A stretch of 64,000 nucleotides of DNA from an uncultured Myxococcales bacterium (GTDB lineage: Bacteria > Myxococcota_A > UBA9042), in contig CAIMLR010000036.1 of NCBI GenBank assembly GCA_903842345.1, positions 310,001 to 374,000 on the forward strand. The letters are read 5' to 3'. Under the pieces are notes generated by a model. It was not told where the DNA came from. It made no database searches and worked only from the letters and a program-made list of their open reading frames with translations. A program made the translations under genes and the position numbers. Below, in pieces: positions 18,136 to 60,114 of this stretch. Positions within the stretch are counted from its first letter, which is position 1. Each line of letters begins with the position of its first letter.

Positions 18136-18169
18136 GAGGGTGCTCCTGAACTTGCTGCCGGTGCGGGGA

Positions 18170-21622: not shown

Positions 21623-21753
21623 TGCGGTCCTCATCGAACTTGCGGTTCGCTTGCTGCCGTTTCCCGGGTCGCCAAGCTCCACCCCACGGGAGCCTGTCAG
21701 CCGGTGCTTGAATGTGCGCTGCCACCCTCCGTTCCACGACGGCGGGCGGTTTC

Positions 21754-23931
21754 CTAGAACGAAGGCGCCGGGAAGTTCGGCGTAACGACTTTCTGTTTGG
21801 AAGCGTTGAGCTTGCCTTCGATGGTGCCACTCGGCCAGTCGATCGTCGCGACGTACCAAAGGTCCTTCTTGTTGAGCGCGAACGCCTCTTCGTACTGCAG
21901 CAGGCCGTACACGTAGACGCGCACGGTGGCGGTCGACGGGCCATAGCCGTGGTCGTCGTAGTAGTGCACGCCAACCGAGTAGAGCTTGCCATCTTCCGGC
22001 AGCGTCAGGTTCAGATTCTCCGGGCCAGCGCCGTCGGTATCGTCGCGATCGAGGTGCGGATTGTCGTCGATGTTCGGATCGTAGCTGCCCCATTCCAGGA
22101 CCTTGCCGCTGCCGCAGTTGTACCAGAAGCAGTCGTATTGGTCGGCGAACCACGGGTCGGGCGTGCCGTCCTTGTCCAGATCGATCGCGGTCGCCGCGTA
22201 CGGGTGGGCAAAGTGCAGGTCCAAGTCGGAACCCTTGAGCGGGCCTTCATCGGATTCATCCGAATCGCCCGGCGTGTGCCACGTCAGCTCAACGTGAATC
22301 GCCTGATCCGGCAGCACCTTGACGAGCTTGCACGACGGCGCGCAGCTGTCCTTGCCCTGGTCATCCGTGACGGCCAGGCAGAAGGTGTACTCACCCGCGA
22401 CGTTCGGCGTGAACGTGACGCTCTTGGCGCTGTCCGTCGGCGTGTACTTGGACACGGAACCGTTGGGCTGCGTGACCGTCCACTTGTACTTGGCGATCGC
22501 CGCGCCCGTCGCGTAGCTCTGACCGCCGTCCAGATGCAGCACGGTCTGCGGCACCACGGCGTCGCCTTCCAGCACCTGCACAACCGCCGTCGGGCAATCG
22601 CCCGTCGAGCCAAAGCCGGAAAGTGCAACGTTGACTGGCGTGTTCGGCGAAGCCGGCGCGCTCACGACAACCGTCGCGGTATCCAGCACCGGCGAACCGT
22701 CCGCGTTCTTCTCGGCAACCGCCGCGGGCGTGTACGTCACGTTGAACGTCGCCTGGCTGTTCTTGTCGATGGTCAGCGGCGCCGCATCGCTGGGCGCCTT
22801 GCCGCCCGTTGCCGCGATGGACGTGAAGTCGATGGCGAAGTTGCCGGCGCCCTTGTCGTCAAACGCAAGGCCGGTGATTTTCACGGCTTCATCGCCGCAG
22901 GACTTCAGCGTAACGGTCTGCTTGGCCACGCCGCCGACCTTGGAGCCGCCGAAAACGACGTCCGTCGGGATGACCTTGAGGCACGGGCCGGTCGAATTGA
23001 CCTTGACGCCGACGCGCTTCCAACCCGGGCCGCCCTCCGCCGTGAGCGACGGATCGTTGGTGTGCAGGATGATGTCGCCGTTGCGGGCGTTGTCGTCCTT
23101 GCCCTTGTAGACAACCTGGACGTCCTTGAAGTCGCCCGGCGCGAGGTCGATCTGCGGATTGACCGCGATGACCGCCGTCGTGTGGTATTCGGCGCCATCA
23201 ATGACGAGCGTGAAGGAGTCGTCCAGCGCCGTCGCGTCGATCTGCGCGATGACGAGGTTCGCGGTGCCCTGGTTGCGGATCGTGAAGTTGTTGGTGCCGG
23301 TGCCGGGCGCTTTGACAAAGCCGAGGTCGACTTCGCTCTCAACCGCGATCTTCGGCACGCCGTTGGCGGTCTTGATGTTGACGACAAAGTCCGGAATCGG
23401 CGTTGCGGACGCGTCATTCGTCGCGAGGTGGAGGCGCGCGGTGCGCACTTTGTCGTCAACCGGCTTGGTGTATCGGATCGTGACCTTGACGCTCGTCGCG
23501 CCGGTGCCGCCGGTCTGGGCAACGTTCGGCCATTTGGTCGTGGCGCACGGCGTCGTGCCGTCCGGGCCAAAGCAGGCAAACGCAGGCGCGTCCTCGGGCG
23601 CGGGCGCGGTGTAGTCCAGCGTGACCGAATTGAACGCCAGCGGGCTGTTGCCGTTGTTGGTGACCGTCAGTTCCAACGTGCCGTCGCCGGAGCCGCTGTT
23701 GAAGATCTTGGTCGACTTGTTGGAAACCGGGCCGTTGGAGTCGTTGACCTTGATGACCGGCTTGCAGTCGATCGAGAAGCCGCCGCTGGTGCCGCAGTTG
23801 CCGCCGCCGGTGGTCGTGGTCGTCCCGGTCGTGCCGCCGGCCGGCGTCTTGGAGGAGCAACCCACGCCCAGAGCCAGGACCATCGCGGTCACGGAAAGAA
23901 CTCGCAGGGCAGAACGGATTCGAGAAGTCAT
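21754..23931 (-). CDS. Surface lipoprotein of the Ca-loop/DUF2135-like family (copy 1 of 4)
   Basis: This is a 725-residue lipoprotein (lipobox GVGC). Domain order: Gly/Thr-rich linker, Ig-like domains with choice-of-anchor-D features (NNGNSPLAFNSVTLDY, IRNQGTANLVI, TLKSCGDEAVKI), a PKD-like domain (about residues 455-535; YKWTVTQPNGS, FCLAVTDDQG), then a last ~190-residue domain. That last domain carries DLDLHFAHP, a Ca-binding-type loop DLDKDGTPDPW, YDCFWYN, DDTDGAGPENLNL and VGVHYYDDHGYG. It is shared with the genes at 36808, 39271 and 41664 and resembles YfaP/DUF2135 domains. It is encoded upstream of two related Ig-like lipoproteins in the same direction. Confidence 0.78.
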   Translation of the reverse strand: MTSRIRSALRVLSVTAMVLALGVGCSSKTPAGGTTGTTTTTGGGNCGTSGGFSIDCKPVIKVNDSNGPVSNKSTKIFNSGSGDGTLELTVTNNGNSPLAFNSVTLDYTAPAPEDAPAFACFGPDGTTPCATTKWPNVAQTGGTGATSVKVTIRYTKPVDDKVRTARLHLATNDASATPIPDFVVNIKTANGVPKIAVESEVDLGFVKAPGTGTNNFTIRNQGTANLVIAQIDATALDDSFTLVIDGAEYHTTAVIAVNPQIDLAPGDFKDVQVVYKGKDDNARNGDIILHTNDPSLTAEGGPGWKRVGVKVNSTGPCLKVIPTDVVFGGSKVGGVAKQTVTLKSCGDEAVKITGLAFDDKGAGNFAIDFTSIAATGGKAPSDAAPLTIDKNSQATFNVTYTPAAVAEKNADGSPVLDTATVVVSAPASPNTPVNVALSGFGSTGDCPTAVVQVLEGDAVVPQTVLHLDGGQSYATGAAIAKYKWTVTQPNGSVSKYTPTDSAKSVTFTPNVAGEYTFCLAVTDDQGKDSCAPSCKLVKVLPDQAIHVELTWHTPGDSDESDEGPLKGSDLDLHFAHPYAATAIDLDKDGTPDPWFADQYDCFWYNCGSGKVLEWGSYDPNIDDNPHLDRDDTDGAGPENLNLTLPEDGKLYSVGVHYYDDHGYGPSTATVRVYVYGLLQYEEAFALNKKDLWYVATIDWPSGTIEGKLNASKQKVVTPNFPAPSF

Positions 23932-24210
23932 CGCTTTGGCCTTGTCGCTCGGGCGCGCTGTTGTCTGTCTGGGCCCGGGCGCATTGCCGCGGGAGTGACA
24001 GATGGCAGATCTTCCAATCAGGGCAGTGCGCTTCCGGGGAAGGCAATGCAGTTGCACGTGTCAATCGTCCACTTCGCCGTCAGTTTGCACCGGCAGCTGA
24101 ACGCTACACTCTAACGAAGATCTGCCCCAACGGGCAAGTGATTGTTACAGGCCACGCCGAGCGCGTTTTCGGCGCCAAAAGGACGTCTCGCGGCGATTCC
24201 GGTCGGCCAA

Positions 24211-24447
24211 CTACCGCAACGTCGGATCGGCCACCGAGGCGCTGAGTGCCGCGCGCAGCGACTTCTTGATCGTCAACAATCGTTCGAAACGCGCGCGCTG
24301 GTGGCCTTCCATGTACATCGTCGCCGGACGGGCGATGTGGCCATCGACCGTTGTGCCGGTAAATTCGATGAAACGGGCTCGGTCCGGCTCGGCGCCAACC
24401 GCGCTTGAAGCGAGAAGCAACATCAGGGCAACACTACATTTCTTCAT
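24211..24447 (-). CDS. Small secreted protein, paralog of 24565-24819
   Basis: This 78-residue protein has a signal peptide ending near SSAVGA. The mature ~58 residues share with the gene just upstream the pattern DGxI-(2)-PxTxYME-(2)-QRARFxxLL-(2)-KKSxRxxL and a C-terminal TLR/TLK. The mature segment looks helical, basic and amphipathic. The family is not recognised. It is the last gene of the barrel/TPR cluster and likely acts with it, judged by position only. Confidence 0.65.
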   Translation of the reverse strand: MKKCSVALMLLLASSAVGAEPDRARFIEFTGTTVDGHIARPATMYMEGHQRARFERLLTIKKSLRAALSASVADPTLR

Positions 24448-24564
24448 GGTTTCCTCGCCGAGCGGGCCGGAAATGGGCCCAAAGCTCAGGAGGTCAGACG
24501 ATCGCGCGCGCCAAAAGTTCTACCGCGGCGCAGATCTTGCCGCAGGAACCGCCGCGCGTGCCGC

Positions 24565-24819
24565 TTATTTCAAGGTGCGCTCTTTGGCGGATTCAATCAG
24601 CGTCGGGCGAAACGACTTCTTGAGCTTGAGCAGCTTGTCAAAGCGCGCGCGCTGGCGCGATTCCATGTACAGCGTCGTCGGCTTCTTGATTTCGCCGTCG
24701 ATGAGCTGGTCGCTGAAGTCGTAAAACTTTGATTTGTCTTCAGCAAACGCCGCTGCGGCAGGCATCAGGCCAGTGATGACCAGGGTGAAGGCAGCGATTT
24801 TCAGGTTCTTGCGGGCCAT
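24565..24819 (-). CDS. Small secreted protein, paralog of 24211-24447
   Basis: This 84-residue protein has a signal peptide (about 1-26, ending AAAFA). The mature part includes KFYDFSDQLIDGEIKKPTTL and then YMESRQRARFDKLLKLKKSF, matching its neighbour closely. The ATG at 24819 is preceded by GGAGATCGCC. The two copies are separated by 117 bp and share about half their mature residues, so they arose by tandem duplication. Proteins of this sort can be small partners of outer-membrane complexes, but no function is known to me. Confidence 0.68.
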   Translation of the reverse strand: MARKNLKIAAFTLVITGLMPAAAAFAEDKSKFYDFSDQLIDGEIKKPTTLYMESRQRARFDKLLKLKKSFRPTLIESAKERTLK

Positions 24820-24884
24820 GGCGATCTCCAAGTGGGCTGAGTCAGTCTAGCGTTACGCGCCAGCGACGCAATCGAATTCTGCGG

Positions 24885-26870
24885 CTACTTCGGCGCCGGC
24901 GCCGGCTCTTGCGGCTTGTTGTTCGGGTCTTTCGCCTGCTGTTCCAGCATCATGCCCTGTTCAATCGCCTGCACGCGGCTCTCGATCGCAATCGAGTTCT
25001 TCCACTTCAGCGCCATCGCCGCTTCATTGGCGATCGCCGCGGCCTTCAGCTTGGCATAGTCCGGCGTCATCTTCTTGGGCGCCTTTTCATACTTCTTCAG
25101 CTCAACGCGCGCGGCGTCCAGCTGCGGCTTGACCTCGTCCGCCTTGGGCAGATTGGCGTCCTTGATGTAGCGCTTCCAGTACTCGATCGACCGCTTGCCG
25201 TCGTTGAACGGCTGGTTGTTGTAGATGAGCGCGAGACGCACAAGGATCGCCGTGCGGGTCGCGTCCTTCACGAGCACTTTCTCATAGATCTCCGCGGCCT
25301 TCTTCGGCTCGCGCTTGCCTTCCAGGGACAGCGCGTAACCAGTCAAGGCCTCCAGGTTGTCCGGCTCCAGCGCCAGCGCGGCTTTGTACTGCTTCTCCGC
25401 GTCGCGGTAGTTCAGGTATTCCAGGTAGATGGCGCCGAGATTGAGGCGCGCGCTCGCAGCGTTCGGGTTCAGCTTGACCGCACGGTCAAACGCGACGACC
25501 GCTTTGGGCAGGTCGCCCAAACGCACGTACGCGAGGCCCAGGTTGGCGAGCGCTTCCGGATTGGCGGGGTCGAGCGCGAGCACCTTGTCTTCCAGAATCC
25601 ACCGGGCGATGTCGTTGTTGCCCTGACGCAGCTTGATGAGGCCGCGGATGTTCAGCGCGATCGTGTCTTCGCGATTGGCGCGCAACGCCGTGCGCACAAA
25701 CTGCTCGGCGAGGTCGAGGTTGTCCTGGTCCAGGTAGTAGATCGCCAGCGTGACGTTGGCGACGGTGTTGTCCGGATCCTGGCCGCGAATCGACTCGCAC
25801 ACGCCCTTGGCCTGCTCGGCGAGCTGCGTCGCCCGCGTCTTGTCGCCCGCTTCCAGGGCGCGCCGCGATTCTGCGAGGCTGGCGCGCGCGATGTACGCCT
25901 GTGCGGACAGCTGCAACGACTTCTCGTGGTCATCCTGCGGCGCGATCGCCTTGGCCTGCTCATAGACCGCGACGGCTTCCTTCCACTTGCCCTGACGTTC
26001 CAGCGCCATGCCGAGGTTGAAATACGCCTCGTAGAAACGCTTTTCGCCGTTGACCGCCTTCTGGAACTCGACGGCCGCGCCGGGGTAGTCCGGGCCGCAC
26101 TTGGCGCAGCGACCGTCTGACGTCAGGCAAATCGACGGGCACTTGTAGGTCGAGCACTGGCCGTTGGAGACGTCAATGTATTCGCCGACCTTGCACGGAC
26201 CCGCGCCTTCCGACTTGTTTTCCAGAAGTTCCTTGCCCGTGCATTCGCGCTCCTGCAGGAAGCAGCCGTCCGAGCCGGCCTTGCAGCGCACGTAGCTCTT
26301 CTCGGCCGGCGCGGCGCTGCCGTCAGCGGGCGGCAATGCGGCGAGTTCCTTCAGCCAGTCGCCGCACCAACGCGGCGCACCGGATTTCAGTTCTTCCGGC
26401 TTGCACTCGTAGGTGTCCTGCTCGCACGTCAGGTCGCGCTTGCCGCCGACCCACGGTTCGCACGGCAGGTCTTCGCTCTTCTTTTCCATCTTGCCGGCAA
26501 TCGGCTGGCCAGCGTCGTCAAGCGCGGGGACTTCTTTCTCGACGCTCCGCGAAAAGCGCGCGCACCGCGTGATGTTGCACGACTCGGGCGCGTCAATCGC
26601 CACGCTCGCGCATGCCGGCGGCGCAATGCGCGCGCATTCCTTGCCGAGCGACACGAAGCCGGGGTTGCAGCACTCGCCGTTCTCAAGCATCTGGTATGGA
26701 TTGCACTTGGGCAGCTTGCGCAGCGCCGCCGCCAGACCCGCGCGCATGGAGGCTTCCACCTCGGGCGACAGGCTCGGCAGGTGATCCTGACCGTCAGCGG
26801 CAAACGCCGGCGCCGCAGCGGTCAGCGCAAGCAGGGCAATCAAACTCGTGGTCGTCAAAGTCAGCTTCAT
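24885..26870 (-). CDS. Periplasmic TPR protein with Cys-rich N-terminal region (GltE/NfsE position)
   Basis: This is a 661-residue protein with a Sec signal peptide (about 1-24). Residues ~40-255 hold about 20 cysteines (CNPYQMLENGECC and later), suggesting several disulfides. From ~260 onward there are at least eight TPR units, e.g. YEAYFNLGMALERQGKW and PEALANLGLAYVRLGDL. TPR proteins scaffold multi-protein complexes. Order after two barrels and two other TPR genes matches the position of GltE (AglT) or NfsE in the Myxococcus gliding and spore-coat complexes as I recall them. I see no lipobox, and the Cys-rich head may be lineage-specific. The ATG at 26870 is preceded by GAGG. Confidence 0.8.
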   Translation of the reverse strand: MKLTLTTTSLIALLALTAAAPAFAADGQDHLPSLSPEVEASMRAGLAAALRKLPKCNPYQMLENGECCNPGFVSLGKECARIAPPACASVAIDAPESCNITRCARFSRSVEKEVPALDDAGQPIAGKMEKKSEDLPCEPWVGGKRDLTCEQDTYECKPEELKSGAPRWCGDWLKELAALPPADGSAAPAEKSYVRCKAGSDGCFLQERECTGKELLENKSEGAGPCKVGEYIDVSNGQCSTYKCPSICLTSDGRCAKCGPDYPGAAVEFQKAVNGEKRFYEAYFNLGMALERQGKWKEAVAVYEQAKAIAPQDDHEKSLQLSAQAYIARASLAESRRALEAGDKTRATQLAEQAKGVCESIRGQDPDNTVANVTLAIYYLDQDNLDLAEQFVRTALRANREDTIALNIRGLIKLRQGNNDIARWILEDKVLALDPANPEALANLGLAYVRLGDLPKAVVAFDRAVKLNPNAASARLNLGAIYLEYLNYRDAEKQYKAALALEPDNLEALTGYALSLEGKREPKKAAEIYEKVLVKDATRTAILVRLALIYNNQPFNDGKRSIEYWKRYIKDANLPKADEVKPQLDAARVELKKYEKAPKKMTPDYAKLKAAAIANEAAMALKWKNSIAIESRVQAIEQGMMLEQQAKDPNNKPQEPAPAPK

Positions 26871-26939
26871 CAGGTTCCTCGCGGTGCCAGGCAGTGCCAC
26901 TCGGGGTGGCCGCTGCCGGTGTCTCAGATGCGGTCGGAA

Positions 26940-29900
26940 TTACTTGGGCGCGGGCGCATCCGCCTTGGGCTTGTAGGACGCAGTCAGCTTGCCGCGGCGC
27001 ACGGAGGTCACAAAGGCCGCCGAGGTCGCTGCATCCGTCGCTTTGTCCGACTTCACGGCGGTAATCGCCTTGGGCAGATTCGGATCCTTCTCGATGGTCG
27101 GGAACGCGTTCGGGTTCACCCGCGCCGCGTAGTCGCCCGCCTCTTTGGACCACTTGTTGTACACGCCGGCGTTGTGCGCGAGCGTAATGGCAAAGTTCAA
27201 ACCGGCCAGCGCCTGCTCTTCGATCGGCACCGCGAGCTTCTCAATTTCCTGGCGGTACTTGTCTTCCAGATCCGGGTTGGCCTTGACCTCGGGCGGAATC
27301 GGCGCGTTGAACAGGTCTTCCTTGAACTTGAAGTACAGCAGACCGACGCGGAACGCCGAAGCCGCCGCCCACGAGCGGCCATTGGTCGGCAGCGTCGCGT
27401 CCATCACTTCGTGATAGCTCTTCTCCGCCTTCTTGAGCAGCTCCGCCTTCTTCTGCAGCACGCCGCCGAGCTGGGACATCTTCTTGACGTTCTTCAGCGT
27501 CACCGCGTCAAAGTCGTCAAAGTCGTACTCAGCTTTGTTGAAGACCGCTTCACCGTAGTAGTACGGCGCGCGGCCCTTGGCGCCATCCTTGGACGTGTAC
27601 GCCTTGACCGCCGCGTCCGCCGTCTTCACGACGTCTTTGCGGTTCTTGGCGGCATTGTCGGTGCGCAGCGCCTCGGAGCGACGACCCAGCGATTCAACCG
27701 CCAGATCCGGGCGCGCCGTGCCGTACTTGGTCGCGACCGCTTGGTACTGCGTCGCCGCAGCCTTCGCGCCATCGACGCCCATCTTCTCCAGCACGTGAGC
27801 CTTTTCCATCTCCGCGTCCGGAATCGCCGCCTTCAGTTCCACGGCGCGCGCCGTGTCCTTGGCGCCATCGGGCTTGAGCGAACCCGCCACGCCGATGAAC
27901 TTGTCATACGCCGCCGCCGACTCCTTGTAGTTCTGCAGCGCGTTCAGGATCGCGCCGGCGTTGATGAGCGCCTGCGCCGCGTCCGCGTTGTCGCGCAGCT
28001 TGGCCATGTTCAGGAACGCGTCAGCCGCATCGCGGAACTGCGTCATCTGCTCGTACACGAGGCCGATGGCGAACATCGCTTCCGGCGCGATCTTGGCCTT
28101 GGGGAATTCCTTCACGACCTGCTCGTATTCCTTAATCGCCTTGACGTCTTCCTTCTGCTCTTCGTACAGGATCGCCTTGTAGTACATCGAGTGCGCCGCG
28201 AGCTCCGGCTCATCCTTGCGGAATTCCTTGAGGATCGTGTCGTACTTGGCATGCGCGCCGTCAAAGTCCTTCTTCTCGGCCAGCTCGCGCGCCTGCTCGG
28301 CCATCGCCACGACGATGTACTTCCGCAGATCCGCGGTCTCCAGCACGATGCGGCCCTTGCGCGCCAACATCTTGCGCGACCAATCTTCAATGCGCTCCCA
28401 GTTCTTCTGGCGGGCGTAGATGTCGATCATCGTCTTGACCGCGATTTCCGCCGTCTTGGATTCCGACTTGAACGAGTAGACCTGCTCAAAGCGTTTCAGC
28501 GCCTCGTCATACTGGCCACGATCGTAGTACGTCGCCGCGGCGAGATACATGATCTCCGGCACTTTCGCGCCGCGATTGCCCAGCTTGCCCTTGGCCTTGA
28601 GCTGCTCCATCAGGTTCACGTACGTGTCCGCGCCCTTGATGTAGTCGACTTCCAGCGGGTGCAGCGGCTCGGCGCGCTTGGGCGTGCCCGCCTGACGGAT
28701 TTCTTCTTCCGTCTTCGGCTCTTTCTTGACCTTGGTGACTTTGACGCCCTTGCCGTCATCCGCGCGGACATTGTCCGGCACGAGCGACGGGCAGGTCGCC
28801 TTTTCCACCCACTTGTCGTTCTCCAGGCAGACGTGCGTCTTGCGCATCAGCTCTTCCACGGAGTAGAGCAAGCCGAGCGCCGCGTCTTCCACGTATTCGC
28901 CCGCGGTATCCAGCTCGATGACGCGCTTGTACTGCTGGCGCGCGCCCTCGTAGTCCTTCAACTGGTCAAACAGGATTTCCGCGTAGTAGAAGTTGACGAT
29001 GTACGCCTTCTTGGAGTTCGGGTAACGCCGCACAAACTCGTTGTAATCCTTGGCCGCGGCCGCGTATTCGGGCTTGGCGCGCTCGGGCTCCTTGGACTCT
29101 TCCTCGATCTTCTGCGCGGCCTGGTGGTGGTGATTGGCCACGTACAGCAGCAGCGTCTCGCCCATCTTCTGGGCCTTGTCCAGCGACTCCGCGTTGCCCT
29201 TGTTGGCGGCAATCCACGGGCTGGTCCGGTCGTCGGTGAACGCCAGGAACTCGCGCACGGCCTTCTCGATGTCCGGGAAGTTGCCGATCTTCTTGCGCAC
29301 GTCGATGATCTGCTCATGCCAATCGACGCAGCGCTTGTCGCTCGGCTTGTTCTCGATGAAGTGGTGCAGCAGCTCGATCGCGTTTTCGTCCTTGTCCGTG
29401 GCGATGTAGATGTCGGTCAGCTTCTCCAACCGCAGCCACATGCCCTTCTCGCCTTCGACGGACGTGAAGTACTCTTTGGCTTCCGGCCAGCCGTGATCCA
29501 GCTCGCCAAACGCCTGGACCAGGTCCTTGAGCGCCTGATCGCGGAACTCGATCTTGCCCGCCGCGCGGTCCTCGCCGATTTCCTTGACGACCTGCTGGAA
29601 CGTCTCGATCGTACGACGGAATTCGCGCAAGTTGTAGTACACCCAGCCGAGCTTGTAGAGCGCGTAGTTGTACATGCCCGCGGTCTTGTAGTTCTGGGTG
29701 ATCTTCTCGTAGTTCATCTTGGCGAGCGTCAGGTTGTTCGCCTCGAAGAAGTGCTCGGCCAGCGCGAGGTGCGTATTGGCGATGTACGGCGACTGCTGGA
29801 AGTTCTGCACCAGCTTGTTCAGGTACTGCACGCCCTTGTTGGAAAGCACTTTGTCGCCCAGCGCCTTGCCCTGCTGGAGCGCAGCTTTGCCGAGGCGATA

Positions 29901-30491
29901 CAGCACCTCTGACATGCGCTTGTAGTTCGGCTGCTGCTGCAGGATCTTCTCGTACCACGTCAGCGACTGCTGGTAGTTCTCCACCGGCGGCACCGGCTTG
30001 GTCGGGCGATGCGCTTCCGGCGACTTCTCCCACGCGTCAACGGCCTTGTTGTACTCGGACATCTGCGCGAGGTAGTTGTAGTGGGAGATCTCCCAGTACG
30101 ACTCCGCCAGCCGGAAGTACAGATCCGCGACGTTGTCCTGACGCGGATTGCGCTCGATCATGTCGTTGATCGTCTTGATCATCTTCTGGAGCGACTCGAT
30201 CTTCTGCCGCTGCAGGTCGCGCTCCTTCTGGGTCAAGCCGAGCGACTCCATGCGCTCGTAGTCGAACTCGCCTTTCTTCAGCGAGTCGTCTTCGGCCTTC
30301 TTTTTGGCTTGCTCGGCAGTCGGCTTCGCTTCTTCAACGAGCGACCCCTTCTTCTCGACCTTCTTGCTCGCAGCGCCGGCTTCCGCCTCAAGCTGCGTCT
30401 CCTCTTCCTGTGCGAACGCCATCGGCGCAACAAAGGCGAAAGCGGTCAAGACGGCAGTGAACCGCAGGACTTTCTTCTCAAGCTTCAACAT
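26940..30491 (-). CDS. Very large periplasmic TPR protein (GltD/NfsD position)
   Basis: This 1183-residue protein has a signal peptide (about 1-28, ending MAFA) followed by an acidic/Lys-rich segment. TPR-like helical repeats run through most of its length, such as YFRLAESYWEISHYNYLAQ, YRLGKAALQQGKALGD and PEAMFAIGLVYEQMTQFRDA. There are no enzyme motifs. It would form a long periplasmic superhelix bridging partners. It sits between the GltC-like and GltE-like TPR genes, with 66 and 69 bp gaps, and is probably cotranscribed. The name by position is from memory of Myxococcus and not by alignment. Confidence 0.82.
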   Translation of the reverse strand: MLKLEKKVLRFTAVLTAFAFVAPMAFAQEEETQLEAEAGAASKKVEKKGSLVEEAKPTAEQAKKKAEDDSLKKGEFDYERMESLGLTQKERDLQRQKIESLQKMIKTINDMIERNPRQDNVADLYFRLAESYWEISHYNYLAQMSEYNKAVDAWEKSPEAHRPTKPVPPVENYQQSLTWYEKILQQQPNYKRMSEVLYRLGKAALQQGKALGDKVLSNKGVQYLNKLVQNFQQSPYIANTHLALAEHFFEANNLTLAKMNYEKITQNYKTAGMYNYALYKLGWVYYNLREFRRTIETFQQVVKEIGEDRAAGKIEFRDQALKDLVQAFGELDHGWPEAKEYFTSVEGEKGMWLRLEKLTDIYIATDKDENAIELLHHFIENKPSDKRCVDWHEQIIDVRKKIGNFPDIEKAVREFLAFTDDRTSPWIAANKGNAESLDKAQKMGETLLLYVANHHHQAAQKIEEESKEPERAKPEYAAAAKDYNEFVRRYPNSKKAYIVNFYYAEILFDQLKDYEGARQQYKRVIELDTAGEYVEDAALGLLYSVEELMRKTHVCLENDKWVEKATCPSLVPDNVRADDGKGVKVTKVKKEPKTEEEIRQAGTPKRAEPLHPLEVDYIKGADTYVNLMEQLKAKGKLGNRGAKVPEIMYLAAATYYDRGQYDEALKRFEQVYSFKSESKTAEIAVKTMIDIYARQKNWERIEDWSRKMLARKGRIVLETADLRKYIVVAMAEQARELAEKKDFDGAHAKYDTILKEFRKDEPELAAHSMYYKAILYEEQKEDVKAIKEYEQVVKEFPKAKIAPEAMFAIGLVYEQMTQFRDAADAFLNMAKLRDNADAAQALINAGAILNALQNYKESAAAYDKFIGVAGSLKPDGAKDTARAVELKAAIPDAEMEKAHVLEKMGVDGAKAAATQYQAVATKYGTARPDLAVESLGRRSEALRTDNAAKNRKDVVKTADAAVKAYTSKDGAKGRAPYYYGEAVFNKAEYDFDDFDAVTLKNVKKMSQLGGVLQKKAELLKKAEKSYHEVMDATLPTNGRSWAAASAFRVGLLYFKFKEDLFNAPIPPEVKANPDLEDKYRQEIEKLAVPIEEQALAGLNFAITLAHNAGVYNKWSKEAGDYAARVNPNAFPTIEKDPNLPKAITAVKSDKATDAATSAAFVTSVRRGKLTASYKPKADAPAPK

Positions 30492-30557
30492 CTGGTAACC
30501 TCAAGAGATGGCCACGCTGGCAGGCAGCCGCGGGCGGGCGGAGCGAACGGGACCCGC

Positions 30558-32483
30558 TTAGCGGTTCATCGCCGAGCACTGCTCTTTGACAAACGCGCGA
30601 TAGGCGCCAATTTCATCCTTCCAGAACTCACCTTCAAACGGCCACACCATCGAATCCGAACCGGCGATGGCCAGCGAGCCCTGCGTCGCAACGGTCGCGT
30701 CCGCAGCAGTCTTGTCGCCCTTGATCTCGCCTTCAATCTTGACGAGCTTCAGTTCTTCCAGGTCGACCCGCAGCTGGTCCAGCTTGTCCTGATACGTGCC
30801 GATGTCCTTCTCCGTCTGCCGCAGCGTCTTTTGGATGACGACGCCCGCTTCCGAGATGCGCTCATTCTTCAGCTGGCCAAGCCGCGCCAGCAGGTCCTGA
30901 CCGAACGCGCCAAGCGGCGTCAGGTTGGCCTTGATCAGCGCCTCTTCCTTGTCGATCTGCTTGATCGTCTGGTAAAGATTGAAGAACTCAACGTTGCTCA
31001 GCACCGGCGACTGCAGGCGCCGCGGCAGCGACGACGCCGACTTCTTGTTCACGGACTCGATGAACGAGCTGTAGAAGTCTTCCGGGCGCTTGTTCTTCTT
31101 CAGGAAGTCGCGGAGCGGCGGCGACAGGACGAGCACTTCCTGGGCAAACATGTTCATCGCCGCTTCCGCGTGTTCCGCCTGGCAGAGATTCACAAAAGTG
31201 GTCGCTTCCAGCACCCAAAGCTCCGGATAGAACTGGTGGGCGAAGAACGGCGAGTGCAGCGCGTGGAACGTGCCCAGCGCGCGGGACGTGTCGTTCTTGA
31301 GGAAGTACGTCCAACCGGCTTCGTAGAACGCTGACGCGAGCTTGGGCGAATTCTTGGAGATCTTCTTGTAGTAGTAGATCGCCGCGTCAAACTGCTCAAA
31401 CTCGTACGCGAGGCGGGCGAGCGCGAGGTACGCGAGGTCAACGACCGGCTGGCCAGCGGCGCCCTGCGCTTCACCGGCGATGACGGCGGACTGGAACGCC
31501 TGACTGGCAGCCTTGACCATTTCGGCTTTGCCCGTCGACTCGTCCTCAAAAGCGATGAGGCCAATGAGGTACTGCGCGCGGCCATAGTCTTCCGACTTGC
31601 TCGCGACCTTCTCCAGGTACGGCTTGGCGTCCGCGGACAGGCCAAAGTCGTGCAGAAATTCGCCAACGAAGTAGTTGAAGTTGCTCTGGAACTTCTCATC
31701 CGCGCCAGAGACGTTGAACTTGGTCAGGTCTTCCAGCTCGGGCGGACGGTAGTTGATTTTGCGGCGCAGGTCGCGCAGCTGCTCAAACGCGGGGACAAAG
31801 AACATCTTGTCCGAACCCGCGCGCACGACTTCCAACAGCAGGTTGGCCGCCGACTGCATCAGACCCGCACGCGCGAGCGCGTTGGCGATGCCGTACTTGG
31901 CGACGTACACTTCCTGGCTGTCTGGCGGGAACGGCACGCCGCCCGGGCCATCTTCAATGAACTTGTTGAACACCTGGATCGCTTTGACGAACTCGCCGCT
32001 GTTGGCGTAGTCCTGACCCGTCTTCAGCACCTTGGACGCGAACGCCTTGCGCACGGAATCCTGACGGCGGCGCTCTTCTTCAGCCAGCCGCACGGCTTCT
32101 TCCTTGATCTGCGCTTCCTCGGCCGCCTGTTCAGCCGCCGACAGCTCGCGCTTCTCCTTTTCCTTGACCTTGCCCGCTGGCGTCGTGGCCGGCGTCTCCG
32201 CCTTGCCATTTTGCAGCATCGCGCGGATCACCTTCTCCGACACGCCTTTCTTCTTCAGATCGACGATGTCCGACGGCTTCAGGTTGAACGCCGCGGCGTC
32301 TTTTTGGATCTTCTTGATGATTTGCTCATCCGGAATGTCCAGGCCAACCAGCGTCACCACGTCCTGCACCGTAATGGCGAACGCGTGGGCGGCCGGCAGC
32401 AGCAGCGCAAAAGTGGTCGTACCCGTCACCACAAGGCGACTGAGGGTGCGGTTCAGGAACTTCTTCTGGGCGAGTGGCTTCAC
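30558..32483 (-). CDS. Periplasmic TPR protein (GltC/NfsC-like)
   Basis: This is a 641-residue protein. The GTG at 32483 is chosen because GGGAG lies eight bases upstream. The signal peptide ends LLPAAHAFA. Right after it comes a helical module (VTLVGLDIPDEQIIKKIQKD and VSEKVIRAMLQ), then a charged coiled-coil stretch (residues ~85-130, KEKEKRELSAAEQAAEE), then TPR units (such as YLALARLAYEFEQFDAAIYY). A late coiled coil (~520-580) is rich in Lys, Glu and Leu. It directly follows the two barrel genes, as nfsC/gltC do in Myxococcus, where the protein links the barrels to the rest of the complex. Confidence 0.8.
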   Translation of the reverse strand: MKPLAQKKFLNRTLSRLVVTGTTTFALLLPAAHAFAITVQDVVTLVGLDIPDEQIIKKIQKDAAAFNLKPSDIVDLKKKGVSEKVIRAMLQNGKAETPATTPAGKVKEKEKRELSAAEQAAEEAQIKEEAVRLAEEERRRQDSVRKAFASKVLKTGQDYANSGEFVKAIQVFNKFIEDGPGGVPFPPDSQEVYVAKYGIANALARAGLMQSAANLLLEVVRAGSDKMFFVPAFEQLRDLRRKINYRPPELEDLTKFNVSGADEKFQSNFNYFVGEFLHDFGLSADAKPYLEKVASKSEDYGRAQYLIGLIAFEDESTGKAEMVKAASQAFQSAVIAGEAQGAAGQPVVDLAYLALARLAYEFEQFDAAIYYYKKISKNSPKLASAFYEAGWTYFLKNDTSRALGTFHALHSPFFAHQFYPELWVLEATTFVNLCQAEHAEAAMNMFAQEVLVLSPPLRDFLKKNKRPEDFYSSFIESVNKKSASSLPRRLQSPVLSNVEFFNLYQTIKQIDKEEALIKANLTPLGAFGQDLLARLGQLKNERISEAGVVIQKTLRQTEKDIGTYQDKLDQLRVDLEELKLVKIEGEIKGDKTAADATVATQGSLAIAGSDSMVWPFEGEFWKDEIGAYRAFVKEQCSAMNR

Positions 32484-32561
32484 GGCTCGGCTCCCTTTAC
32501 ATTGGCCGTCCAAGTGCGGACGGCTTCAGAATCGTTGCGACGTTGGGTCAACAGAATCGGT

Positions 32562-33467
32562 TTACTGCAGACCTGAAGTGAACCAGGTGATCGACACGGT
32601 CGCCGCCATCGGGTGCGACACACCGCCGGCGCCCGGATGCGTGGTCGAACCAAACAAGTCGCGCAACTTCGGGTAGAAGAGCTGCGTGTAGTCGATGCCG
32701 AGCGCGAAGCGGTCAGACAGATAAATCTGCATGGTCGCGCCGACGTTGCCCGCGGGATCCGGCGCGTACGTCGGCTCCGACTCGTGGCCCTGGTCGACAA
32801 TCTTCGTCAGCACTGCGCCGACGCCAAAGTTCAACGAAAGGTCGAACTCGACGAGCTTGGTGGTGAAAAAGCCGAACTTGCCGTGCAGCAAGTTCCAGTC
32901 GACGCCGGCGAGCGCGTAGCCCAGCAGCGTCTGCGGCAGGCGGACTTCCAGACCCGGACCGTCGGGACGCGACGTGGTCAGGCTGGACTGCAAGGAGGTC
33001 TGCTGCGGCAGCGTGTAGTTGGCACGGATGCGGAGGGCAAAATCCTCGGAGAAGTAGTACTGGTAGCCGACGCCCATGGCGACGTAGGCGAAGAAGTCGT
33101 CGTTGGGCACGACGCCGGCGGAGAGCGACAGACCGTGGCGACCTTCCTTGAGGATGGCGCGCTTCTGGATGACGCGGATCTCGCGGCGCTGGGCCCAATC
33201 GAGGCGACTGCCGGCGGGAACGCTGTCGTCCGAGATGCCGTAGGCGCTCTCAACGGCGCCGCCGACTTCTGGCACGGCTTCAGCCTTGGCGGGCTTGGCC
33301 TCAGCCGGCTTGGGCTCCGCAGCCGGCGCTTCAACCGGAACAGCAACAGCTGGCGCATCGGCGGCCGGCGGATCCGCCGCGAAGGCGGGCGCAGCAGTCG
33401 CAACCAGCGCGCACGACGCGGCCAGAAGCGGGGACTGCCAGGACTTGAGAATCAGCGGGAGGCGCAT
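32562..33467 (-). CDS. Outer-membrane beta-barrel protein (GltB/NfsB-like)
   Basis: This 301-residue protein has a signal peptide (ending PAFA), an Ala/Pro/Glu-rich linker (~30-70), then a barrel with alternating strands, e.g. GLSLSAGVVPNDDFFAYVAM, GVGYQYYFSEDFALRIRANY and MQIYLSDRFALGIDYTQLFY. The 'VPND-F-F' and 'LRxNYTxP' features match the Myxococcus-type outer-membrane barrel family (OMP_myx_plus, from memory). The protein ends in short beta strands with an aromatic residue near the end (ITWFTSGLQ). It is a paralog of its upstream neighbour. The ATG at 33467 follows AGAGGT. Confidence 0.82.
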   Translation of the reverse strand: MRLPLILKSWQSPLLAASCALVATAAPAFAADPPAADAPAVAVPVEAPAAEPKPAEAKPAKAEAVPEVGGAVESAYGISDDSVPAGSRLDWAQRREIRVIQKRAILKEGRHGLSLSAGVVPNDDFFAYVAMGVGYQYYFSEDFALRIRANYTLPQQTSLQSSLTTSRPDGPGLEVRLPQTLLGYALAGVDWNLLHGKFGFFTTKLVEFDLSLNFGVGAVLTKIVDQGHESEPTYAPDPAGNVGATMQIYLSDRFALGIDYTQLFYPKLRDLFGSTTHPGAGGVSHPMAATVSITWFTSGLQ

Positions 33468-33523
33468 CAGGACCTCTATCAGACAGGGTGTCGCGAACGG
33501 GGCGAACTGCGGAGCAGCGCGCA

Positions 33524-34321
33524 CTACTTGGTCAGGAATGCCACGCCGAGGGTGAACTCGACCGGCGCCAGGAACGGCTTGCCTTGGTCAGGAACGTACA
33601 GGAACTGGCGGTAATCCGTGCGGATGTTCAGCCAGCGCGTGACGTAGAAGCGAAGGGTCGCGCCCCAGTGACCGCCAAACTTGGTGGCGGAGACCGCGGG
33701 CAGGTCTTCATTGCCGTCGGACGTGTCAATCTTGGCGCCAATGATGCCGAGACCGCCGACGAAGCCGATGTCAAAGTTGCTGAGCTTGGACGCGAAGATG
33801 CCGAGCTTGCCGTGGAACGGCGACCACGCGAGGTCCACCGAGCTGAGCCACGTCATCTGCGGGGCTTTCTTGGCGCCTTTGGTCAGGTCGGTTGGGCCGT
33901 TCTTGCCGCCCGGAACGGCGACGAGAAACGCCTGCAGGTCGCTGTTGGCGTTGAACAGGTAGGAGAAACCGGCTTCCACGGACAGCGTGTCCGTGAAGAA
34001 GAAGCCGAGGCGACCGCCAACCGACTTGGGGAAGTAGAACGAGTCATTGGGCACGATGCCGAGGTGCAACGCCGCTTCAAAGCCGCCCTTGCGCTCGTAC
34101 ATCGGGTTCTGCAGCGACGACACTTTCTGTTCGGCGTTCCAGTACTTGTCGAGTTCCGAGTCAATCGGCTGATTGCCGTTGTATGTCGGATCACCCTTTG
34201 CCTCTTCTGCCCAAGCAGCGTGCGGCGCGGTGGTGGCCGCCGCCAGGACGGCGAGGCTCAAGCCCAGGTTGCAGAGAACGCGGTTGAGCGTCCGGGCAAG
34301 CTGGCTGCGATTGAGGTTCAT
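33524..34321 (-). CDS. Outer-membrane beta-barrel protein (GltA/NfsA-like)
   Basis: This 265-residue barrel has a signal peptide (ending AAWA). Strand signatures are FEAALHLGIVPNDSFYFPKS, GGRLGFFFTDTLSVEAGFSY and LRFYVTRWLNIRTDYRQFLY. The same 'GIVPNDSFYF' and 'LRFY-N-R-DY-QFLY' core is found in the neighbour at 32562, so the two are paralogs. The ATG at 34321 has GAGGAGAAG immediately upstream. In Myxococcus, paired barrels of this kind form the outer-membrane part of the gliding and spore-coat machines. Confidence 0.82.
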   Translation of the reverse strand: MNLNRSQLARTLNRVLCNLGLSLAVLAAATTAPHAAWAEEAKGDPTYNGNQPIDSELDKYWNAEQKVSSLQNPMYERKGGFEAALHLGIVPNDSFYFPKSVGGRLGFFFTDTLSVEAGFSYLFNANSDLQAFLVAVPGGKNGPTDLTKGAKKAPQMTWLSSVDLAWSPFHGKLGIFASKLSNFDIGFVGGLGIIGAKIDTSDGNEDLPAVSATKFGGHWGATLRFYVTRWLNIRTDYRQFLYVPDQGKPFLAPVEFTLGVAFLTK

Positions 34322-34449
34322 CTTCTCCTCCATTCTAACTCTCGCTGGCCTGTCTCTCGCGGGCGTGGCGTCGGGTGACGGGCGCGCGGTCATAACCAAG
34401 GACTTTCGTCCGGAAAACTGCGGACCCAAATGGCCCGCGCGGCGTTCGC

Positions 34450-36414
34450 TTACGGCTTGATCGCGTCAACGCACTTCTGGCCGGCCGTGCACGTGCCGTT
34501 GCGGCAAGTGCCGCTGGCGCCGCAGGGCTCGCCGTTGGGCGCCTGGACCGTCACGCACACGCCGCCGTCACCGCAGTGATTGGCGCCGCAGCTGTCCGTG
34601 CCGCCGCAGTCGGCGTCAGCCGTGCACGGAATGCGCATGACAACGCGGCGATCTTCCTGGCCGTTGACCGTGAAGCGCCACGACGACGGGTCCAGGTCGT
34701 GCACCGCGGGATCGAGGCTGGCGAACTTGGCGTCGTTGAACACAAAGTCGCCGTCGACCGCGCGAATGGCGCCCTTGGGGAACTCCGATTCCGTGTTGAT
34801 CGACGCCCACTGGTAGCCGACGCGCCACGTGCCCGACAGGCCGTTGCGCACGCGGTTGACCGCGCGGGCGAGGGCATCGGAGAAGTCCTGCTGCGCCGAC
34901 TTGTTGAAGTTCTCGCTGTTGATGAACTGGTACGTGCCATCGGTGCGGCAAGCCATTTCCATCATGCGCGGATCCGGCTCTTTGTAGCCCGGCGCCTGGA
35001 ACTGCACAAAGTGCACGTGCACCGGGTAGTTCAGCTTGGCCATCTTGATGAGCGTCTCTTTCCACTTCACGTCGGCGGTCGCGCACTTGACGCGGCACTT
35101 GCCCAGCGTGTCCTTGTCCTTCAGCGACATGTAGCTGAAGTCGTCGCCATCGACGCAGGTGTCGGGACCGTCGGTCACGACGACGATGTGCATCGCGCCA
35201 AGCGGGCCAAACGAGCCGTCCGGGCAGTCGGCGCCGCCGCCCGCGAGGAAGGTGAACGCGTTGTCGATGGTTTTCCAGAGAGAAGCGCGGCCGGTCGCGG
35301 TGTTCCGCTTCAGGTCGATGCCGTTTTCCAGGTCGATGCGCTTGCTCTGATCGGAGCCGAACGCCAGGCACTGCGCGGAAGCGAGCGCCACGTTGTAGCT
35401 GTCGTTGGTCTGCGTGGGGTCCTGATCGCAGGTGCCGGGCGAGGGGCAGGAACCGGCGTTGTCGGGACGGCAAGCCGCACCTTCCGTCGCGGGATCGCCT
35501 GAGCCGTTGCAGATGAACGAGTCCGACGCCGCGACCTTCGGGCCGTTCTCGTCGTACAGGTAACCGACGACGCGGTCCTTGGCGTTCAGGCTTTCAATGA
35601 AGTTGGTCGCCGCGGTGAACCGCATGCCGCTCCAGTCCGACGCGACCTGGGTCAACGGCGGCTGCGCGGGGTCGTAGTTGCCTTCCGCGTCTTCCTTCAG
35701 CGTTTCCTTGTCGACGTTGCCCTTCATCGAGCCGGAGTTGTCCAACACCAGCGCGACGTTGATGCGCGTCGCCTCGTCCTGCGCCGGATTGCAGCGATCG
35801 GCGATGTTCTTGTAGACGACCGACTTGGCGTCGATGGTCTGCGCAGTCGCACCGCACGGCGACAGATCGGACTGGGCGCCGACGCAGCGCGCCGAGAACT
35901 GGAAGTTGCCGACCGACACCGTCGCGGGCACATCCGTCCGCACGCGGGTGAGGTTGATGAGTTCGCCTTCCTTGATCGAGTTGTCCTTGTCATCCGGGCA
36001 AGCCGGCTTGTTCAAGCTCGAGGACATGAAGTTGGCGGTCACTTCCATGCCGTTGGCTTCACTCGGGCCCGGCTCAGCCGGCAGCGAGGGATCGGCGGGG
36101 TCAAGCGGCGCGCCGCAGACGCGACCCACAACGTGGCCGTTGGCATCGATCTTGGCCGGGAAGGCCGTCACGGCTTCAATCGCGTAGAACTTGCGATCGG
36201 GCAGCGTAAACTTGGCCGTCGAGTCGCAAGACGCCAAGCCGCCGCTCATCGCCAGCAGGCTCGCCAAGCTCAGCGCGCTCGCGGCCGTCGGCACCCAGCG
36301 GCCAGCAGGCATGAGGCCCTGCATTTTCGGCTTGTTGGAGGCGTGGAGGTGCCCGTGCGCGGCGTGGGGGCGCCCGTTCGAGGCTCGGTTGTTGCGGTCC
36401 AGATTCATCGACAT
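34450..36414 (-). CDS. Cys-rich VWA-domain lipoprotein (CglB-like adhesin candidate)
   Basis: This is a 654-residue protein with an unusually long N-terminal leader (63 residues, His/Asn-rich first half) before the lipobox GLASC. The VWA domain begins near residue 218 with an intact metal-ion adhesion motif DNSGSM (D225). It is interrupted by Cys-rich insertions, and a Cys-rich tail follows (CTADADCGGTDSC type). AGGAG lies 5 bases before the ATG at 36414. In Myxococcus the VWA lipoprotein CglB is the surface adhesin of the gliding complex. Here the gene is first in the same strand run as the barrel and TPR genes, so a similar role is likely. This is inference from domain and position. Confidence 0.78.
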   Translation of the reverse strand: MSMNLDRNNRASNGRPHAAHGHLHASNKPKMQGLMPAGRWVPTAASALSLASLLAMSGGLASCDSTAKFTLPDRKFYAIEAVTAFPAKIDANGHVVGRVCGAPLDPADPSLPAEPGPSEANGMEVTANFMSSSLNKPACPDDKDNSIKEGELINLTRVRTDVPATVSVGNFQFSARCVGAQSDLSPCGATAQTIDAKSVVYKNIADRCNPAQDEATRINVALVLDNSGSMKGNVDKETLKEDAEGNYDPAQPPLTQVASDWSGMRFTAATNFIESLNAKDRVVGYLYDENGPKVAASDSFICNGSGDPATEGAACRPDNAGSCPSPGTCDQDPTQTNDSYNVALASAQCLAFGSDQSKRIDLENGIDLKRNTATGRASLWKTIDNAFTFLAGGGADCPDGSFGPLGAMHIVVVTDGPDTCVDGDDFSYMSLKDKDTLGKCRVKCATADVKWKETLIKMAKLNYPVHVHFVQFQAPGYKEPDPRMMEMACRTDGTYQFINSENFNKSAQQDFSDALARAVNRVRNGLSGTWRVGYQWASINTESEFPKGAIRAVDGDFVFNDAKFASLDPAVHDLDPSSWRFTVNGQEDRRVVMRIPCTADADCGGTDSCGANHCGDGGVCVTVQAPNGEPCGASGTCRNGTCTAGQKCVDAIKP

Positions 36415-36807: not shown

Positions 36808-39201
36808 ATGCTCTCAACCACTTTGCCCCGCTCTGTCGTCACGCTGCCTGCGGCCAAGGTGTCCGCGCTGCTGGTGCTCGCGCTCGCGGCGGCAGCTTGC
36901 AGCAACGGCTCCAGCACCGGCACCAATACCCAGCAGGGGACCGGCGCGATCCAGTGCATCATCAACAGCAGCCTGGACTGCAGCGCCATCGCCAAGATCT
37001 TTGACGTCAGCACCAACCAGAGCGTCACAACCGGCAACACCATCTCCGTGCAGGTCGGCGGCGGTGTGACCGCGACGGACGGCAACGACACGGAGTTCTC
37101 CATCACCAACGCCGGTTCGTCGACCGCCGCCGCGGAGCTGCGCATCGCCAAAATGGAGCTTGTCTACGAGCCGGCGAGTCCGCTGGAAGACAAGTCGACC
37201 GGCGATCTGGCGTTTACCTGCTGGGACTCGGCGAAGAAAGAGAGCTGCGGCACGCACACCTTCAACGCGGTGGTCCCGTCCGGCTTTGAGAACGGCAGCA
37301 CGCGCGTCACGTCTGAGCGCTTCTTCATCCGCTTCAAACAGTTCGACACGAACGATCGCAAGGCCAAGCTGAAGATCACGTTCCTCAACGACCTGAGCCT
37401 CAACTCCAAGTCGGCTGGCGTGTACACCATCAACCTCGCGACCAAGCTCGGCGTGCCGAAGATCACGATCGACCCCAATGAGCTCGCGTGGGGCTACGTC
37501 AAGCCGGACACGCAGGAGCACGGCCAGTTCACGATTCGCAACCAAGGCGACGGCGTGCTGACCTGCAAGTCCATCCTGTTCACGGCGAGCGCGCCGGTGT
37601 TCACGATCGACGAGCTGGGCAAGCTGACCAACATTCCGTCGTCGTCCAGCAAGGTCGAGCTGCCCGAGCCGCTGTCGATTCCCGTCGCCGGTTCGCTGGA
37701 CGTGCACGTCACCGTCTCCCCGACCGATGACAAGCTCAAGACCGCGACGTTGACGCTCTTCTGCAACGACCCGAGCCAGCCCAACGGCACGCCGGTGCCC
37801 ATCAAGGCCAATTCAGAAGTGCCGTGCCTCAAGCTGACCCCGACGACGGAGAACTTTGGCGGCGTGCTCGCGGCGGGCGGCGAAGACTCGCGCGTCGTCA
37901 CGGTCACCAGCTGCGGCGGCACGGAGCTGTGCCTCACCGGCTTTGACTTCGCCAACAACACCGCGGCCGCGGGCGAGTTCATCCTGGACTTCTCGCCCAT
38001 GCAGGTCATGTGCCCCGGCATTGACGCCGCGACCGGACCGACCAAGGACAAGCCCTGCTGCGTCCCGGCGGGCGGCAAGAGCACGACCTTCAACATCAAG
38101 TACACGCCCAGCGACGTCAGCCCGGCCGACCCGAACAATCCGGGCCAGCAGCTCGCGGACACGGCGCTCATCCAGGTGACGTCCAACGCGTTCTCCAATC
38201 CGCCGCCGACCGTCGCGGTTTCCGGCACCGGCGTGCTGCAGACCTGCCCGATCGCCAAGATCGACGTGACGGAAGGCGATGAAGTCGTGCCGCAGACGAC
38301 GCTGCACCTGAAGGGCGATGGCTCCAAGGGCACCGGCGGTCAAGGCATCAAGACCTACAAATGGACGGTCAAGCAGCCCGCGGGTTCGAACAAGGGCTTC
38401 CTCCCGGCCAGCTCCTTCCCCAATCCGACCTTTGTGCCGGACGCAGCGGGCGAATACGAATTCTGCCTGGACGTGACGGATGTGAACGGCGTCAAGTCGT
38501 GCTCCCAGACCTGCACCAAGGTGCTTGTGGTGCCGAACAACGCGGTGCACATCGAACTGCTGTGGGATACGCCTTCCGATCCCGACCAGACCGACACGGG
38601 TCCGGCGGCGGGCGCGGACATGGATCTGCACTTTGCCAACTACCTGGCGTCCGGCCCGGATCTCGACTGCGACGGCACGGGCGACCCGTGGTTCAACAAC
38701 CCGTTTGACTGCTTCTGGTTCAACAACTCGCCGGAATGGGGCTCAGCGAACAAGGCCGTCAAGGACGACCCGACGCTTGACCTCGACGACACCGACGGTG
38801 CCGGCCCGGAGAACTTGAACCTGGAACATCCGGAAGGCGATCCCGCGCTGCCGCGTTGGTACGCAATCGGCGTGCACTACTGGAACGACCACGGCTACGG
38901 CGTTTCCTACTCGACCATCACGGTCTACCTGTTTGGCGCGGTCGCGCTGAAGATCGACAAGATCTCCATGAATCCGCTGGACATGTGGTACGTGGGCAAG
39001 CTGAACTGGCCCAACCAGCTGACCGGCACGAGCACGCCGCCGTTGACCGTCTGCTACCAGAGCGGCGACACGTGCAGCGGCAAGGGCAAGATGTGGCAGC
39101 CCAAGGGCGACTGGTGCATGACGCCTTGCTACATCAACCCGACGTTCGCGGCGACCACGGGCGGCGCGACGCCGACCAACTGCAAAAACGCCACTCCGTG
39201 A
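36808..39201 (+). CDS. Surface lipoprotein of the Ca-loop/DUF2135-like family (copy 2 of 4)
   Basis: This is a 797-residue lipoprotein (lipobox AAAAC). It has Ig-like domains with choice-of-anchor-D features (IDPNELAWGYVKPDTQEHGQ; TIRNQGDGVLTC), a PKD-like domain (~490-575, YKWTVKQPAG and FCLDVTDVNG), then the shared C-terminal domain from ~578. The latter shows DMDLHFANY, the loop DLDCDGTGDPW, FDCFWFN, DDTDGAGPENLNL and IGVHYWNDHGYG. A further ~50-residue Cys-containing tail follows. It is the first of three tandem paralogs; 69 bp separate it from the next. Likely exposed and calcium-stabilised; function unknown. Confidence 0.78.
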   Translation: MLSTTLPRSVVTLPAAKVSALLVLALAAAACSNGSSTGTNTQQGTGAIQCIINSSLDCSAIAKIFDVSTNQSVTTGNTISVQVGGGVTATDGNDTEFSITNAGSSTAAAELRIAKMELVYEPASPLEDKSTGDLAFTCWDSAKKESCGTHTFNAVVPSGFENGSTRVTSERFFIRFKQFDTNDRKAKLKITFLNDLSLNSKSAGVYTINLATKLGVPKITIDPNELAWGYVKPDTQEHGQFTIRNQGDGVLTCKSILFTASAPVFTIDELGKLTNIPSSSSKVELPEPLSIPVAGSLDVHVTVSPTDDKLKTATLTLFCNDPSQPNGTPVPIKANSEVPCLKLTPTTENFGGVLAAGGEDSRVVTVTSCGGTELCLTGFDFANNTAAAGEFILDFSPMQVMCPGIDAATGPTKDKPCCVPAGGKSTTFNIKYTPSDVSPADPNNPGQQLADTALIQVTSNAFSNPPPTVAVSGTGVLQTCPIAKIDVTEGDEVVPQTTLHLKGDGSKGTGGQGIKTYKWTVKQPAGSNKGFLPASSFPNPTFVPDAAGEYEFCLDVTDVNGVKSCSQTCTKVLVVPNNAVHIELLWDTPSDPDQTDTGPAAGADMDLHFANYLASGPDLDCDGTGDPWFNNPFDCFWFNNSPEWGSANKAVKDDPTLDLDDTDGAGPENLNLEHPEGDPALPRWYAIGVHYWNDHGYGVSYSTITVYLFGAVALKIDKISMNPLDMWYVGKLNWPNQLTGTSTPPLTVCYQSGDTCSGKGKMWQPKGDWCMTPCYINPTFAATTGGATPTNCKNATP

Positions 39202-39270
39202 TGGCGCACGTCGCGTCCCGCGCCTGACCGCCACGGCCAGACGCGCGACCGCGGCAAATGCTGAGACCCG

Positions 39271-41598: not shown

Positions 41599-41663
41599 CG
41601 CGCGGCCGGACCTTCTTGCGGCAGAGCAATGGTGCGGTAGCACACGGTGTCTGGGGAGCCCTC

Positions 41664-53511: not shown

Positions 53512-53578
53512 GCGGGCAGACTTTTTGTGAGTTTTCGCGTCGCAAGGCGCACACCCGGTCGGCCAACGGCTGGGCGAG

Positions 53579-56545: not shown

Positions 56546-56554
56546 GAGCGCGCT

Positions 56555-58279: not shown

Positions 58280-58312
58280 CGGGCGGTGACGCCGCGACGG
58301 AATCGCGCATGA

Positions 58313-58330
58313 CCCCGCTGTAGGGCGGGG
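58313..58330 (+). other. GC hairpin between gspE and gspF
   Basis: An 18-bp hairpin (CCCCGC, 6-base loop, GCGGGG) lies in the 93-bp gap. It has no T tract, so it is unlikely to terminate. It could slow or stabilise the transcript, dividing the T2SS operon after gspE. Confidence 0.35.
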
Positions 58331-58372
58331 CGAGACGATCGGCGGAACAAAAAGGGCAACGGTAGAAGGCAG

Positions 58373-59638: not shown

Positions 59639-59656
59639 ACGACTTGGAGGTGTGAG

Positions 59657-60085: not shown

Positions 60086-60114
60086 GCCGGCATCGGCTGA
60101 GGAAATGGCGCGCA

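Follow-up and report, generated by a model that had tools for sequence, protein, structure and literature searches.

A VWA-lipoprotein-led gene run of Glt type in an uncultured lake myxobacterium

The origin of the Glt gliding machine and the timing of its adhesin gain are open questions. Both are touched by eight co-directional genes of an uncultured lake myxobacterium, located on the minus strand of a 64,000-nucleotide stretch of DNA (the window), from 36414 down to 24211, with a spacing of about 20-120 bases. Does this run, which starts with an adhesin-like gene, encode a Glt-type machine, and what would such a machine do in its host? In transcription order, the run comprises a VWA lipoprotein, two barrels, a GltC homologue, a GltD-like protein, a GltE-type protein, and two GltF homologues, measuring 654, 269-301, 301-320, 641, 1183, 661, 84, and 78 aa, with the start codons of the VWA and both barrel genes uncertain by some tens of codons. 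A sequence-only reading had described eight genes in this order, and its coordinates and sizes hold.

Protein families of the run

The first gene (34450..36414, minus strand; true start perhaps downstream of the annotated ATG) encodes a predicted outer-membrane lipoprotein with a MIDAS-bearing VWA domain, its localisation being assigned from the lipobox. The lipobox (Cys63) and the intact MIDAS-type motifs DNSGS (225-229) and TDG (414-416) are conserved in most of 25 orthologues. In the PDB, the predicted structure (pLDDT 79, pTM 0.83) finds its matches among folds of the VWA/integrin type. At the sequence level, the window protein has no direct Pfam match, although its orthologues in relatives do match Pfam VWA; it has no NCBIfam match at E 1, and a PDB sequence search yielded nothing useful for it or for the barrel.

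The earlier description of this protein as CglB-like is apt for its architecture and position, comprising a VWA fold, a lipobox, and a place at the front of the run. CglB, the surface adhesin of Myxococcus xanthus gliding, is likewise an outer-membrane lipoprotein with a VWA domain and acts beside barrels, as the window protein presumably would. The window protein, likened to CglB by architecture and position, differs in its 654-aa length, its Cys-rich C-terminal part, and the inclusion of its gene within the run.

Two outer-membrane β-barrels of the GltA/GltB type follow on the minus strand, at 33524..34429 (probable start 34333) and 32562..33524 (probable start 33467). They match TIGR04565 OMP_myx_plus with 81.6 and 87.7 bits, respectively, against a curated cut-off of 60, the model spanning a wider barrel subfamily than GltA/GltB. 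The predicted model of the second barrel has eight strands, with OprF/OmpA as the best PDB match.

The next protein (30558..32483, minus strand), a secreted 641-aa TPR protein, matches NF033756 gliding_GltC with 178.5 bits (E 2.5e-52) over profile positions 5-619 of 622. The equivalog cut-off is 450, and the match identifies the protein as a GltC homologue rather than an equivalog. A PDB sequence search with GltC returned generic TPR matches only. The 1183-aa secreted TPR protein (26940..30491, minus strand) lacks a model of its own and is assigned as GltD-like from its position after gltC and from a profile-profile comparison, in which its family aligns with the GltD-like proteins of the genome's core system over ~990 columns (E 3.8e-86), against E 2e-7 for a TPR control (GltE).

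The 661-aa TPR protein (24885..26870, minus strand) is assigned to the GltE type by position, by its orthologues, and by NF033758 gliding_GltE, which it matches with 62.5 bits, below the cut-off; other TPR models score higher, and an orthologue in another family reaches 102 bits with gliding_GltE. Its Cys-rich N-terminal head, singled out in the sequence-only reading, is real but family-specific: it is confined to the window's family, and elsewhere GltE is an ordinary lipoprotein without the head. The two small secreted paralogues that end the run (24565..24819 and 24211..24447, minus strand) are present as described. Their proposed status as new partners was dropped, since both match NF033764 gliding_CglF (E 1e-10 and E 4.6e-5, respectively) and are thus GltF/CglF homologues. 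The comparison with M. xanthus proteins was made through NCBIfam models, and the GltC, GltE, and GltF matches, together with those to GltJ described below, all fall below their equivalog cut-offs, indicating homology rather than identity of function.

TPR proteins yield many weak matches, and generic barrel and TPR proteins could in principle resemble the glt order by chance. We regard this explanation as extremely improbable and reject it. Matches to the GltC, barrel, and GltF models are specific, the first two of these models hit none of 14 control genomes, the GltD-like profile match lies far above the TPR control, and the order is conserved across the phylum. Profile searches with NCBIfam models thus bear out the proposal of a Glt/Nfs-type envelope complex, far beyond generic barrel and TPR similarity.

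The run is flanked by lipoproteins with Ig- and PKD-like domains, which are possible accessory parts. Divergent from the VWA gene, the first (36808..39201, plus strand) carries Ig-like (ASPM-SPD-2-Hydin) and PKD-like domains according to Pfam; it is a conserved neighbour, and its relatives adjoin the VWA gene divergently in several families. Its paralogue lies immediately downstream of the run (21754..24057, minus strand; Pfam K319L-like PKD and HYDIN-type Ig). Arrays of such paralogous lipoproteins extend on both sides, at 16117-24057 (minus strand) and 36808-43895 (plus strand). A terminator-like hairpin (24122..24137, minus strand) directly follows the last gene; this site is weak, coming from a consensus scan in which such hairpins are no commoner than in shuffles. 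Farther away, genes at 52471-63885 resemble a type II secretion operon that seemingly runs on beyond the window end (L195).

Conservation of the run and the GltC phylogeny

The type of GltC found at the window locus (W-type) is present in most genomes of the window's class, and the VWA-barrel(s)-C-D-E-F run is kept in nearly all class loci with enough flank, one barrel being usual outside the window's family. Beyond the class, W-type GltC occurs in families f19, f28, f30, f42, f43, and f48, within runs composed of a VWA-type lipoprotein, one or two barrels, C, D, E, and F. Gene calls in relatives were made with a simple purpose-written script, and the named relatives are uncultured Myxococcota, many of them lake-derived. 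Two W-type loci (L106 and L136) are titled Klebsiella pneumoniae and Anaeromyxobacter dehalogenans and look mislabelled.

Chance does not explain the run: almost all relatives whose flanking sequence is long enough show it again, and no control genome is matched by the models for GltC and the barrel. The VWA lipoprotein is an operon member throughout the lineage, in agreement with the sequence-only reading that placed the adhesin gene inside the run, and this arrangement, with the predicted adhesin inside the operon, is conserved across much of the phylum. In f19 genomes, a VWA-type protein occupies the same position (profile match E 3e-25 to 4e-7), with the MIDAS aspartate replaced, often by glutamate (e.g., ENSGS in place of DxSGS; L259, L260, L261, L262, and L270).

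GltJ is a gliding-specific inner-membrane protein. Outside the window's class its gene usually closes the run, following gltF in f19, f28, f48, and the L146-L151 lineage (f30); in the window's class it is no longer in the run. The proposal that the locus is an ancestral version of the machine is plausible solely for the deeper, GltJ-bearing form.

In a careful tree, relied on in preference to a larger, quick GltC tree, 21 W-type GltC proteins form a single clade with 100/100 support, apart from the core and C3 types. The W-type proteins carry an additional N-terminal domain, which is absent from core-type GltC. The locus thus most likely represents a distinct Glt lineage, separate from the GltG-linked core complex.

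Motor, inner-membrane parts, and MglA

The genome has three GltC-GltD systems, one of which is the window locus. The second is GltC2-GltD2 on contig C2, with a GltF-GltG-TPR group ~50 kb from GltC2, and the third is barrel-GltC3-GltD3-GltE3-small protein on C23. GltG homologues lie on C2 and C23 and none within the window. A GltJ homologue with a zinc ribbon and a GYF domain lies on C14 and none in the window's run. One ExbB and two ExbD genes on C7 form a candidate AglRQS-like motor trio, also unlinked to the run. The statement that inner-membrane and motor genes are missing is thus correct for the window and incorrect for the genome, where homologues of GltG and GltJ and the AglRQS-like trio are found elsewhere. 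Since these parts are unlinked to the run, we infer rather than observe their partnership with the window complex.

Three side observations were also made. A third system resembling Glt, made up of a barrel, a long GltC, GltD, GltE, and a small protein, is conserved beside an ObgE-like GTPase gene (L017 8579-18529 and L207-L211). A tandem pair of AgmX/PglI C-terminal-domain proteins occurs at L191 9491-13177, with no FHA domain in the one scanned. In L271, L275, and L279, a small lipoprotein gene lies divergently beside core-type gltC, comparable to cglC beside gltBAC in M. xanthus (PMC4488436).

MglA, the switch that steers gliding in Myxococcus, appears from genome searches to have been mostly lost in the window's class. 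Its absence was first suggested by PF00025, a weak detector, and a true MglA adjoining MglB, encoded in an L146-lineage genome, was used as the query instead. It had no match in 50 of 52 class genomes, the window's own included; the two matches were in G024 (42% identity) and G036 (30%, within a larger protein). With most of these genomes at 85-97% completeness, scattered gaps cannot account for the absence. The loss may represent a single evolutionary event, so that its coincidence with the unlinking of GltJ is no more than a correlation. The gliding machinery of M. xanthus depends on MglA (PMC9481161), and gliding of the known kind is thus not expected in a class where MglA is undetectable in nearly all genomes.

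The undetectable MglA, the unlinking of GltJ in the class, and a run devoid of GltG, GltJ, and motor genes would also suit a static scaffold, for the envelope or for adhesion, that is no longer coupled to a motor and in which the barrels and TPR proteins merely display the VWA lipoprotein. We consider such a scaffold quite unlikely, since GltD, GltE, and GltF are all kept across the whole class and the genome retains GltJ, GltG, and the AglRQS-like trio.

Proposed function and relation to known Glt and Nfs systems

The reading we lean towards, with some reserve, is that the run encodes that half of a Glt-type force-transducing complex which lies in the outer membrane and periplasm, for motor-coupled surface adhesion or gliding, operating here without MglA. 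The M. xanthus proteins GltB, GltA, and GltC bind one another as parts of the gliding complex (PMC4488436), and Glt transmits the work of the motor to the surface (PMC3169522, PMC3858216). Given their homology to M. xanthus Glt, the window proteins should form the outer half, with the VWA protein as the surface contact. The barrel pair would hold the VWA lipoprotein at the surface, where it would act as a metal-dependent adhesin, and GltC, GltD, GltE, and GltF would carry force across the periplasm. The AglRQS-like proton-channel trio would drive the complex via the homologues of GltJ, of GltG, or of both, all of these genes lying elsewhere in the genome, and in the window's class the complex would have to operate without MglA.

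This force-transducing reading draws on the family matches of the barrels, GltC, GltE, and GltF, the full-length GltD-like match, the conserved MIDAS, the gene order, and the W clade. Further points in its favour are the GltJ that follows GltF in several other families and the GltJ, GltG, and ExbB/ExbD genes of the window's own genome. Against it count the missing MglA, the unlinked motor and inner-membrane parts, the sub-cut-off GltC, GltE, GltF, and GltJ scores, and, for Bradymonadia, type IV pili as an alternative. Glt paralogues, moreover, need not serve motility, as the M. xanthus clusters G4 and G5 are of unknown function and have no motility effect (PMC3169522). Two genomes whose GltC falls in the W-type clade, G058 and G169, appear to be the cultured Bradymonadia Bradymonas sediminis FA350 and Persicimonas caeni, respectively. 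Bradymonas is described as weakly gliding and Persicimonas as flagellated and gliding (PMC7188933); surface movement in Bradymonadia is also credited, partly, to type IV pili (PMC7188933, PMC11509652). No account of the operon in Bradymonadia was found in the open literature searched. Given that the fuller run carries GltJ and occurs in these apparent cultured gliders, its likeliest role combines surface adhesion with gliding or surface transport.

Compared with M. xanthus Glt (gltA-K, CglB, and AglRQS), the window run has a matching order of barrel pair, GltC, GltD-like protein, GltE, and GltF and shares the VWA lipoprotein, and families related to the window's have GltJ within the run. It differs in forming one run, where Glt has two clusters, in placing the VWA gene first, in lacking linked GltG, GltJ, and motor genes, in the undetected MglA, and in matches below the equivalog cut-offs. 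The Glt core complex (GltC, D, E, and G with AglRQS; Luciano et al. 2011), which is also represented by the system on C2, has the GltC, GltD-like, and GltE families in common with the window; the window GltC, however, belongs to a separate clade with an extra N-terminal domain, and its run includes barrels and a VWA protein and lacks GltG.

An Nfs-like role is the chief alternative, and the absence of MglA from almost all of the class speaks for it. Here a surface polysaccharide (capsule or coat), and not the cell, would be moved or anchored by the complex, and the VWA protein would bind the glycan. The Nfs spore-coat complex (M. xanthus nfsA-H) is a Glt paralogue that transports the Exo spore coat without MreB (PMC3858216). 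Its A-to-F parts are likewise clustered in one region, and GltJ is absent from Nfs and from the window's run alike. Related runs in other families, however, carry the GltJ that Nfs lacks, NfsA-H as described has no VWA member to compare with that of the window, the window run has no G, and no glycan export genes were recognised adjoining it. We judge glycan transport unlikely on balance, if deserving of serious attention.

On a wider scale, we tentatively raise the possibility that the VWA-led run represents a third Glt lineage, spread across the phylum. Its full VWA-barrels-C-D-E-F-J form would be the gliding or surface-adhesion machine of Bradymonadia and other non-Myxococcus Myxococcota, with an MglA-free adaptation in the window's class. 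A conserved operon joining a VWA adhesin, barrels, and GltC-GltF, with GltJ in its fuller form, offers a compact, testable gene set for cultured gliders. A class that retains the complex but has lost MglA almost entirely is, in addition, a natural experiment on how the complex works in the absence of that switch.
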